Shown: piece by piece, positions 27,141 through 30,187 of the stretch
How positions within the stretch are numbered: the stretch's first letter is position 1
Layout of the letters: the number at the start of each line of letters is the position of its first letter
Assembly: GCA_949498175.1 (NCBI GenBank)
Contig: CATDDF010000043.1
Location: 1 to 48,695 of the forward strand
Source: Alphaproteobacteria bacterium
Lineage (GTDB): Bacteria > Pseudomonadota > Alphaproteobacteria > RS24
Direction of reading: 5' to 3'
DNA: 48,695 nt
The notes under the pieces: model-generated
Database searches by the model: none
What the model was told of the DNA's origin: nothing
Seen by the model: only the letters and a program-made list of their open reading frames with translations
Translations under genes and position numbers: made by a program

Positions 27141-27383
27141 GCACGCTTATTTCGCCGCGCCCAGCAAGACAGCGAGACCGAAGCCGATGGCGATATTCGC
27201 GAAGATGATATCAGCGGCAGCACGGTTTCCTATTTGCTGCTTGGCGGTGCCCTATCGCCGAAATTGAATAATGTGTTCTTCACGCTCAATCATCAATCCA
27301 ATGAAACCGACAGCAATATTATCGGCTTCAGCCAAGAGCGCAATTTTGTGTCAGCGCGAGTCAATTACAGCTATCGTTTTTAA
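27141..27383 (+). pseudogene. Truncated C-terminal fragment of an outer-membrane beta-barrel protein
   Basis: Open frame without start codon: ...GSTVSYLLLGGALSPKLNNVFFTLNHQSNETDSNIIGFSQERNFVSARVNYSYRF*; terminal Phe/beta-strand signature. Confidence 0.65.
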
Positions 27384-28330
27384 ACTTGTAGGAGCGGGCT
27401 GAAAAAACCGAGCCAAAGGGAGACGGTGAGGGCCGACAAAACCGTGGTAACGGTGATGGCACTGGACGCTTCATCTTCCGCGGTTTGATATTGCCCGGCA
27501 AACACAGCGGCAAAAACGCCGGTCGGCATGGCCGATAAAAGCGTCAATGTGGCGACATAAAGCGGCGGCAGGGCGAATAAATAATGCGCGCTTGCGTAAA
27601 CGCCAAGCGGCAAGAGCGCCAATTTGAACACACCGATATAAAGCGAGGGCCATAAATTATCGCCGATTTTGATAAAGGCGAGGCGACCGCCCACCGCAAT
27701 CAGGGCCACCGGAATGGCGGCGCTGCCCAATAATTCAAGAAATCGGTCAACCGGCAAGGCCAGACCGAGACCGGTAAAATTCCAAATCACCCCCGCGGCC
27801 AGCGCCATGACAACGGCTTGGTCGCGCATCGCCACGACCAGCTTGGGCGGCAAATCGGCGAGCCGTAAATCGGCATTGGTCGCCGCTTCCAGACAGATTA
27901 AGGCAACGGTAAAAACCAATAGGCCGTGAAAAGCGAGAATGAGGAATAGCGGCAGGCCGGCATCCGGCCCGAAAGCGGTGAGAATGATGGGAATGCCCAG
28001 CATCACCGTATTGGAAAAGCCCGCACCGAAACCGAAAATCACATATTCCGAGCTGGCGCGCCCTCCAAACACAAACCGTGCGGCAATAAACGCCAAAGCC
28101 ATAATGACCAGCATGGGCGCGTAATAGGCGAGCCATAGACCGATAGACAGGGTTTCGGGAAATTCTGTCAGGGCAACATTGCGGAACAATAAAGCCGGCG
28201 CAGCGAGAACAAACACAAAGCGATTGAGTGTTGCCACATGATCTTGGCTGAACACATCGCGCCGCGCCGCCATATAACCCAGTGCGATAATGGCGATAAT
28301 CGGCGCGACAACGGAAAATGCAATCGGCAT
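27380..28330 (-). CDS. AEC family transporter (auxin efflux carrier-like)
   Basis: Ten hydrophobic segments; ALGYMAARRDVFS...LNRFVFVLAAPALLFRN; GFSNTVMLGIPI. Confidence 0.88.
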   Translation of the reverse strand: MPIAFSVVAPIIAIIALGYMAARRDVFSQDHVATLNRFVFVLAAPALLFRNVALTEFPETLSIGLWLAYYAPMLVIMALAFIAARFVFGGRASSEYVIFGFGAGFSNTVMLGIPIILTAFGPDAGLPLFLILAFHGLLVFTVALICLEAATNADLRLADLPPKLVVAMRDQAVVMALAAGVIWNFTGLGLALPVDRFLELLGSAAIPVALIAVGGRLAFIKIGDNLWPSLYIGVFKLALLPLGVYASAHYLFALPPLYVATLTLLSAMPTGVFAAVFAGQYQTAEDEASSAITVTTVLSALTVSLWLGFFSPLLQV

Positions 28331-28368
28331 GAGCCCCTCTTTCTGCTGCACAGCCTATAGCAGAAATT

Positions 28369-29229
28369 ATGTCGCAGCGCGAAATTTCAGCGCGGGCTGG
28401 ACTTCGTGCCGAGCGGCGCTACCTCTTCGACATGCAGCAAGAACCGAAACAATTTGCCGAACGCGCCGCTTTGATTGCCCATGTCAAAAACATCTCACCC
28501 ATGCTGGCCGATCATATGGGCGCAGAGGCAAGCCCAATAAAAGGCGGACGCGCCGCCGCCGAGGCGGCTTTGGCCAATATCGACCCCATCGCTTATGGCC
28601 ATAGTCGCAATTATCTTGACGGCGCGGTGACGCGGCTATCGTCCTATATCCGCCACGGTATTTTGAGCCTTAATGAAGTGCGCAATCACGCGCTGGAATT
28701 GGGTGACGGTAAAGCGATTGAAAAATTCATTCAGGAATTGGGCTGGCGCGATTTTTGGCAGCGCATTTATGCGCAAAACCCCGATTGGCTGTGGCGCGAT
28801 ATTGAGGAATATAAAACCGGCTTTTGTGCTGATGATTATGCCGATGCACTGCCTGACGATATTGCCGCGGGCGAGACCGAGAGTGCGGCGATGAATCATT
28901 TTATTGCCGAGCTGAAAAATACCGGCTATTTGCACAATCATGCACGCATGTATTTGGCCGCCTATATGGTGCATTGGCGGCGCGTCAAATGGCAGGCCGG
29001 CGCGGTTTTTTTTCTTGAACATTTGCTCGACGGCGATGCCGCATCCAATAATTTATCCTTTCAATGGGTGGCCAGCACATTTGCCAATAAGCCGTATTTT
29101 TTCAATCTCGACAATTTGCAGAAATTCGCCGCCATGCACGCACCTTGTGATTATCGCGACAATAAATGTTTTGCCGGCACTTATGATGATGTCGCGATGC
29201 GCTTGTTCCCCAATATGGAGGCGCTGTAA
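28369..29229 (+). CDS. Photolyase/cryptochrome FAD-binding domain protein (lacks N-terminal photolyase domain)
   Basis: TRLSSYIRHGILS, FIQELGWRDFWQRI, TGYLHNHARMYLAAYMVHW, LLDGDAASNNLSFQWVASTFANKPYFFN. Confidence 0.85.
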   Translation: MSQREISARAGLRAERRYLFDMQQEPKQFAERAALIAHVKNISPMLADHMGAEASPIKGGRAAAEAALANIDPIAYGHSRNYLDGAVTRLSSYIRHGILSLNEVRNHALELGDGKAIEKFIQELGWRDFWQRIYAQNPDWLWRDIEEYKTGFCADDYADALPDDIAAGETESAAMNHFIAELKNTGYLHNHARMYLAAYMVHWRRVKWQAGAVFFLEHLLDGDAASNNLSFQWVASTFANKPYFFNLDNLQKFAAMHAPCDYRDNKCFAGTYDDVAMRLFPNMEAL

Positions 29230-29651
29230 TGACAAAGCTTATTTGGCTGCACGAAGATTGTCTGCGCGCCTCGCATAATGTGTTTTCCCACGCGCCCGAC
29301 GCGCAAGCGGTTTTTATTTGGGACGACGCCCATATGGCCGCCATGCATTTCGGCCTGAAACGCCGCGTGTTTATTTATGAGAGCTTGTGCCAATTACCGG
29401 TTGAGATTTATGTCGGGGACACGGTATCCGCGCTCATGCAATTGGCCGATCGGGGGCAAGAAATTGTCACCGGCAAGAGCCCCAATTCGGCGCTGAAAAA
29501 CATCATGCAGGCGCTGCGCGAAACCATAAAGGTCAGCGCCATTGCCGATGACCCGTTTGTGCAAATGGACAGCCCGCCGGATCTGCGTCGCTTTTTCAAA
29601 TATTGGAACAAAGCGAAAAAACACGCTTTTTCATATGACGGACGGTCCTAA
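29229..29651 (+). CDS. Small photolyase-N-domain-like alpha/beta protein
   Basis: MTKLIWLHEDCLRASHN...VFIWDDAH...LKRRVFIYESLCQLPVEIYVGDT, similar in layout to photolyase LVWFR.DLR / R..FI.e.L..L / GD; start overlaps stop of preceding gene. Confidence 0.55.
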   Translation: MTKLIWLHEDCLRASHNVFSHAPDAQAVFIWDDAHMAAMHFGLKRRVFIYESLCQLPVEIYVGDTVSALMQLADRGQEIVTGKSPNSALKNIMQALRETIKVSAIADDPFVQMDSPPDLRRFFKYWNKAKKHAFSYDGRS

Positions 29652-29653
29652 GC

Positions 29654-30187
29654 TCAGCCTTGCGGCAACACCGCTTCCACGGCGCGCAATAATTTTTTTG
29701 CCTGCGGTTTGGTCAGCGATGAAAAATCGCGCACCGCACGACCATTGGGGGCAATGAGAAATTTATGGAAATTCCATTTCGGCGCGGCACCGGTCTCGGC
29801 CTCCAGCCATTTGTATAACGGATGCGCGCCTTGACCCTTGACCGTCAATTTATCGCTCATCGGAAAATCGATGGCGAAATTGACTGTGCAAAACTCCTTA
29901 ATCTCACTTTTGCTGCCCGGTTCTTGCGCGCCGAAATCATTGCTCGGCACACCCAGCACAATTAACCCCTTATCGCGATAATTTTGCCACAATGCCTGCA
30001 AGCCGTCATATTGCTTGGTGAAACCGCAATAGGAGGCCGTATTGACAACCAATATGGCCTTGCCGCGATAATCGGCCAAATTGAGGCGTGTGCCGTCAAT
30101 GGCGGGCAAGGAAAAGTCATGCGCGGTCAGGGGTTGCGCCGCCAGCGGTGTCGCCAGAAAAACCATAAAAGCCAATATAAGTCTCAT
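29654..30187 (-). CDS. Glutathione peroxidase family protein, exported
   Basis: Signal peptide; VNTASYCGFTKQYDGLQALW, GVPSNDFGAQEPGS, PKWNFHKFLI. Confidence 0.92.
   Translation of the reverse strand: MRLILAFMVFLATPLAAQPLTAHDFSLPAIDGTRLNLADYRGKAILVVNTASYCGFTKQYDGLQALWQNYRDKGLIVLGVPSNDFGAQEPGSKSEIKEFCTVNFAIDFPMSDKLTVKGQGAHPLYKWLEAETGAAPKWNFHKFLIAPNGRAVRDFSSLTKPQAKKLLRAVEAVLPQG

Follow-up and report, generated by a model that had tools for sequence, protein, structure and literature searches.

A probable two-subunit photolyase of reversed domain order in an alphaproteobacterium

Several photolyase groups depart from the familiar order of alpha/beta domain first and FAD-binding domain second. 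A reversed layout has been published for some cyanobacteria only, marine Synechococcus and Cyanobium, both as a two-gene system, phr4/phr5, and as a fused gene, phr6 (PMC9426592). Synechococcus survives UV-C less well when phr4 is disrupted, and Escherichia coli is protected by phr4/phr5, with a light dependence that is not significant (PMC9426592). The two products were proposed either to form a heterodimer or to be joined by frameshifting, a +1 frameshift being put forward for Synechococcus on account of its strongly conserved junction (PMC9426592). Another family, NewPHL (Emmerich et al., 2020), repairs CPDs in single-stranded DNA and has an inverted domain topology (as described in PMC13274461). 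Since short photolyases, or SPL proteins, lack the alpha/beta domain, it has been suggested that the whole photolyase/cryptochrome family may descend from them (view reported in PMC9498864 and PMC9649867).

A related arrangement is found in the window, a stretch of 48,695 nucleotides from a marine alphaproteobacterium of the RS24 lineage (contig CATDDF010000043.1). The upstream gene (28369-29229, + strand), of SPL/Phr4 type, encodes a 286-aa photolyase FAD-binding catalytic domain without an N-terminal alpha/beta domain. The downstream gene (29229-29651, +), of Phr5 type, encodes a predicted stand-alone photolyase alpha/beta (N-domain) subunit of 140 aa. The positions and the stop/start overlap given for these ORFs in the original prediction are exact: base 29229 is common to the TAA (29227-29229) and the ATG (29229-29231), forming a TAATG overlap (29227-29231, +) of the type usual in translational coupling. 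The start of the FAD ORF is ambiguous, lying at either 28369 or 28432. A Shine-Dalgarno-like GGAGG (29217-29221, +), identified from the sequence and by comparison with relatives, precedes the ATG of the 140-aa gene by 7 nt. In alphaproteobacterial relatives the junction overlaps are TGATG or of ATGA type and vary between species, and most of these relatives have an own start for the second ORF with a Shine-Dalgarno-like site 7-9 nt 5′ of it. The neighbours, a Mem_trans permease (27380-28351) and a glutathione peroxidase (29654-30187), lie on the opposite strand, so the pair is a free-standing two-gene unit.

The 286-aa protein matches PF03441 (FAD_binding_7) in Pfam with an E-value of 1.8e-19, and the same search found no match to PF00875 in it, in agreement with the earlier claim of a photolyase FAD domain that lacks the N-terminal alpha/beta domain. 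The PDB sequences that it matches are class I photolyases, in their catalytic part, and a profile built from 30 relatives likewise reaches class I photolyases (4e-28) in the catalytic domain only. Its fold matches those of the Thermus and Anacystis photolyases.

In the alignment, the catalytic residues E, W, N, M, D, D and N are retained. E123 and W126 (28735-28746, +) align with E283 and W286 of the A. nidulans enzyme, positions in the lesion pocket. N190 and M194 (28936-28950, +) align with N349 and M353 and mark a CPD-type pocket, unlike the His/His of eukaryotic 6-4 enzymes. The segment DGDAASNNLSFQW (29029-29067, +) keeps the FAD-contact Asp/Asn residues and W233, and has F231 at the position of A. 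nidulans W390. By the residue roles of class I photolyases, D221, D223 and N227/N228 contact the FAD, and E123, W126, N190, M194 and W233 make up a class I CPD pocket. The flavin-proximal Trp position (29059-29061) is Phe in all seven window-family members of the tree and Trp in all other rows; because of this substitution the usual photoreduction chain is altered in the window family, where photoreduction may follow another route. At the Fe-S cysteine loop only a remnant is left (29146-29169, +), with C260 and C267 but without a CxxC, and Ala stands at the TGxxC position. Most cyanobacterial, Chloroflexota and Deinococcus relatives in the alignment retain all four Fe-S cysteines, in the majority with a spacing of 85, 3 and 6, and the 19-row clade of the window has lost them. 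Among SPL proteins at large, Xu et al. in 2021 are said to have noted Fe-S cysteines in some members only.

Elsewhere among the SPL proteins, Glu and Met of the lesion pocket (E283 and M353 in A. nidulans) are jointly replaced by Gln and Leu in several separate lineages, including Caulobacterales and Gloeomargarita (loci L013-L015, L017-L019, L021, L022, L035, L038, L039, L112 and L159). L105 is the only FAD protein with Gln plus Met. The switch is a possible shift of substrate. Its treatment as correlated evolution was abandoned, the independent events on the tree being too few for a test.

Taken alone, the 140-aa protein matches PF00875 in Pfam with an E-value of 0.26, which is not significant, so family-level evidence is needed for reading it as an N-domain; DUF5639 scores 0.063, and an NCBIfam search gave no match. 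In a family alignment of 34 members, 23 match PF00875 at E <= 0.1, the best at 5.4e-5. A profile of this small (ND) family, searched against PDB sequences, retrieved 20 chains, 18 of them photolyase or cryptochrome N-domains. Aligned by hhalign with canonical N-domains cut out of full-length photolyases, the family gave a probability of 97.8% (E 7e-13, 117 columns), against at most 1.15% in 60 column shuffles and 0.4% for the reversed alignment. An AlphaFold (AF2) model of the protein (pLDDT 89.6) has alternating strands and helices in N-domain order. Foldseek places photolyase N-domains at the top, with TM scores up to 0.63 (2j07) and no match below an E-value of 0.001; phosphopantetheine adenylyltransferases, USPs and other HUP-like folds score close to the photolyases. 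Across 192 alphaproteobacterial genomes, everything else that the ND profile matches is the N-terminal part of a full-length photolyase frame (468-509 aa). On these comparisons the 140-aa family is a homologue of the N-terminal alpha/beta domain of photolyases. The N-domain likeness that had been noticed is thus upheld, since the profile match with its clean controls and the fold matches agree, and a structural match to the photolyase N-domain was found by profile and by Foldseek.

The two genes also travel together. The small gene is present in all 11 other genomes of the window's genus, truncated in one of them by the end of its contig. A search with only the FAD protein retrieved 38 loci. 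At 35 of these the small gene follows just downstream in the same orientation, including the cyanobacterial locus L033, where it lies 1.3 kb away; the three loci without it all end at a contig edge. With such counts, the two-gene arrangement is not a product of chance. In the Alphaproteobacteria sample an SPL-type FAD gene, called at more than 350 bits for the FAD protein (next best 159), occurs in seven genomes, and the small gene occurs in the same seven. The same holds for 25 genomes in the Cyanobacteria sample and four in the Chloroflexota sample, giving 36/36 SPL genomes with the partner gene, a count given without a p-value because the three samples are phylogenetically non-independent. 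Co-conservation, on which the original prediction also depended, is therefore found in each sample.

In 8 of the 25 cyanobacteria the two genes are not adjacent. Four of these genomes (G296, G321, G283 and G323) have them on the same contig of 2.6-6.8 Mb, with about 0.48, 0.54, 2.4 and 4.9 Mb between them, and the remaining four have them on separate contigs. Because co-occurrence persists where the genes lie apart, it is more than operon inheritance and suggests that the two serve a common function. In G447, a Chloroflexota genome, the small gene (L208:3563-4024, - strand) occurs without an SPL-type FAD gene; this lone gene could be a relic, reflect an incomplete assembly or serve another use. 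The conserved C-terminal RFxxYW motif is altered in its product.

Natural fusions provide another view of the pair. On three Deinococcus plasmids a single chain of 456-472 aa carries the FAD domain followed by the small domain, again the reversed order, and its ND part scores 120-129 bits; a fourth has two ORFs that overlap by 4 bp. A Persicobacter plasmid and one cyanobacterial genome encode reversed fusions whose C-terminal part is ND-like by eye and falls below the ND-profile threshold. The former, on Persicobacter psychrovividus pPP1 (L207:2378-3553, +), is directly followed by a second, canonical-looking photolyase/cryptochrome gene of 507 aa. A 502-aa frame at L053 was rejected as a natural fusion, being a GC-rich overlap of two reading frames. 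No two-gene system turned up in the phage collection, whose matches were distant FAD domains of canonical type that span no more than 65% of the query.

A maximum likelihood tree of the FAD domain (82 rows) unites the SPL/ND two-gene systems, the reversed fusions and the NewPHL-like proteins in one group against the canonical photolyases (100/100), with the NewPHL-like proteins, identified by architecture and similarity, in a clade of their own (100/99). Long branches separate the main groups, so the deep placements are provisional. The Deinococcus fusions fall among the two-gene members, which suggests that they arose by re-fusion. The ND profile matches the NewPHL-like C-terminal domain with a probability of 88% (E 3e-6; shuffles at most 26%), and canonical N-domains and NewPHL-like C-domains gave no match when their profiles were compared directly; the link between these two domains therefore rests on the ND family as intermediate. 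The pair is better described as a split member of a reversed-topology group than as a canonical photolyase that was divided and rearranged.

These observations make it quite likely that the pair is a two-subunit, reversed-order flavin photolyase, as originally suggested; N-domain homology and co-conservation support this reading, and judging by its residues the enzyme is probably of CPD type. We infer physical association, the flavin redox cycle, CPD specificity, and any single-stranded DNA preference or antenna. Both chains would be made from one mRNA, their translation coupled through the Shine-Dalgarno site and TAATG. The upstream product would bind FAD and the DNA lesion, and the downstream product would supply the photolyase alpha/beta domain as its own chain. 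This small chain may sit on the catalytic chain much as its C-terminal counterpart does in the natural fusions, a position in which it would cover the FAD site and might carry an antenna. FADH- excited by light would then split pyrimidine dimers.

The 1.7-Mb genome of the window encodes two more photolyase-family genes, one of full-length class I type (G000:C84:41090-41545) and one DPRP of bacterial 6-4 type (G000:C100:3113-3775). Three such genes form a large repair set for so small a genome. A search of the same genome for the F420/FO synthase CofH gave no match over the cut-off, which speaks against an 8-HDF antenna. The pair is thus probably the third photolyase of its genome, predicted to work without 8-HDF; the small subunit perhaps holds MTHF.

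Other readings of the pair bear on the small protein, on the catalytic protein or on the way in which the two are joined. It is hardly credible that the 140-aa protein belongs to some unrelated HUP-fold family, such as the universal-stress or adenylyltransferase proteins, and only happens to lie beside a photolyase. Such proteins do come near in Foldseek, where nothing reaches an E-value of 0.001, and the single-sequence match to PF00875 is insignificant; however, the profile-profile match is specific for photolyase N-domains, 18 of the 20 PDB matches are photolyase or cryptochrome N-domains, and neither co-occurrence at unlinked loci nor in-frame fusion in Deinococcus suits a mere neighbour. 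This reading is largely refuted. More room is left for a self-sufficient SPL protein, with which the small alpha/beta protein associates loosely or transiently as an antenna loader, stability factor or regulator, though we regard this too as unlikely. The catalytic residues all lie within the FAD domain, and the distance between the genes in some cyanobacteria makes strict co-translation unnecessary. Moreover, the Rhodococcus SPL of Xu et al. in 2021 reportedly repairs CPDs alone, so the small subunit may be dispensable. Against this stand the partner gene in every one of the SPL genomes sampled and the natural covalent fusions, the reversed NewPHL-like group being always fused in this sample.

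How the two ORFs are joined is a separate matter. Programmed frameshifting could yield a single Phr6-like polypeptide, as the fused homologues in Deinococcus and the +1 frameshift proposed for Synechococcus phr4/phr5 (PMC9426592) would have it. The second ORF, however, has its own start and Shine-Dalgarno-like site, the overlaps vary between species, and a fusion by frameshifting cannot be required where the genes are non-adjacent, as in the eight cyanobacteria; we consider it very improbable. There is a modest chance, on the whole against expectation, that the catalytic protein acts on 6-4 lesions or senses light and is no CPD photolyase. A 6-4 activity of Phr4/Phr5 has been argued from the Fe-S cysteines and the UV-C phenotype (PMC9426592), and the Phe in place of the proximal Trp in the window's family fits such a departure. 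Yet the window protein is without these cysteines, its pocket is of the N/M/E kind typical of class I CPD enzymes and not His/His, and its genome already holds the DPRP and a full-length class I type enzyme.

If the two-subunit photolyase is real, its meaning reaches beyond one genome. Short photolyases across phyla may be the catalytic halves of enzymes that require two chains, the alpha/beta half being encoded by a separate and often unlinked gene, which would link the canonical N-domain to the NewPHL C-terminal domain; we see this as evenly balanced between true and false. Were it true, domain order would have changed once, with fission and re-fusion inside the reversed lineage, and photolyase history would be one of domain relocation, fission and fusion, testable by biochemistry and phylogeny. 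The argument for SPL proteins as ancestors would fail if a partner gene provides the missing domain in every case, and the two-chain reading weakens the case that short photolyases are ancestral. A natural two-chain photolyase would also be a naturally split light-activated flavoenzyme, whose halves could be titrated separately to show the role of the alpha/beta domain. New here are the alphaproteobacterial variant without Fe-S cysteines, the unlinked co-occurrence, the start signals of the second gene's own, the fusions in Deinococcus and a profile link that ties the N-domain to the NewPHL-like C-domain; no earlier report of these points was found in the papers compared, in which NewPHL and SPL proteins are covered by secondary accounts.

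Compared with class I/III CPD photolyases (1owl, 1tez, 1dnp and 4u63), the pair draws on the same catalytic and alpha/beta domain families, but in reversed order, in two genes, and with both the alpha/beta (140 aa) and the catalytic domain shorter; the canonical class I layout, an N-terminal alpha/beta and a C-terminal FAD domain in one chain, is not that of the pair. NewPHL resembles it in having the catalytic domain first and the small domain second, and NewPHL-like proteins group with SPL/ND in the tree. They differ in being one chain of about 380-450 aa in a separate clade, whereas the window has two chains. The 286-aa protein, a catalytic domain alone, belongs with the SPL proteins by architecture and similarity. 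These were described (Xu et al., 2021, cited in PMC9178010 and PMC9649867) as simply being without the alpha/beta domain, whereas here a partner gene encodes it in all SPL genomes sampled. Closest of all is Phr4/Phr5, in which, as here, a FAD gene without alpha/beta domain is followed at once by a photolyase-domain gene on the same strand. The cysteine spacing in most relatives of the window protein also equals that of RS9916 Phr4, C169/C254/C257/C263 (PMC9426592). The reversed two-gene layout is real, but not new in kind, since phr4/phr5 and phr6 are published (PMC9426592). The window differs in its alphaproteobacterial lineage, its lost Fe-S cysteines, its Phe for the flavin-proximal Trp, and its junction, a Shine-Dalgarno site and TAATG where Phr4/Phr5 has a conserved seven-G/C spacer and a proposed frameshift. 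Because it does not carry the four Fe-S cysteines, the pair is classed as a variant of Phr4/Phr5.
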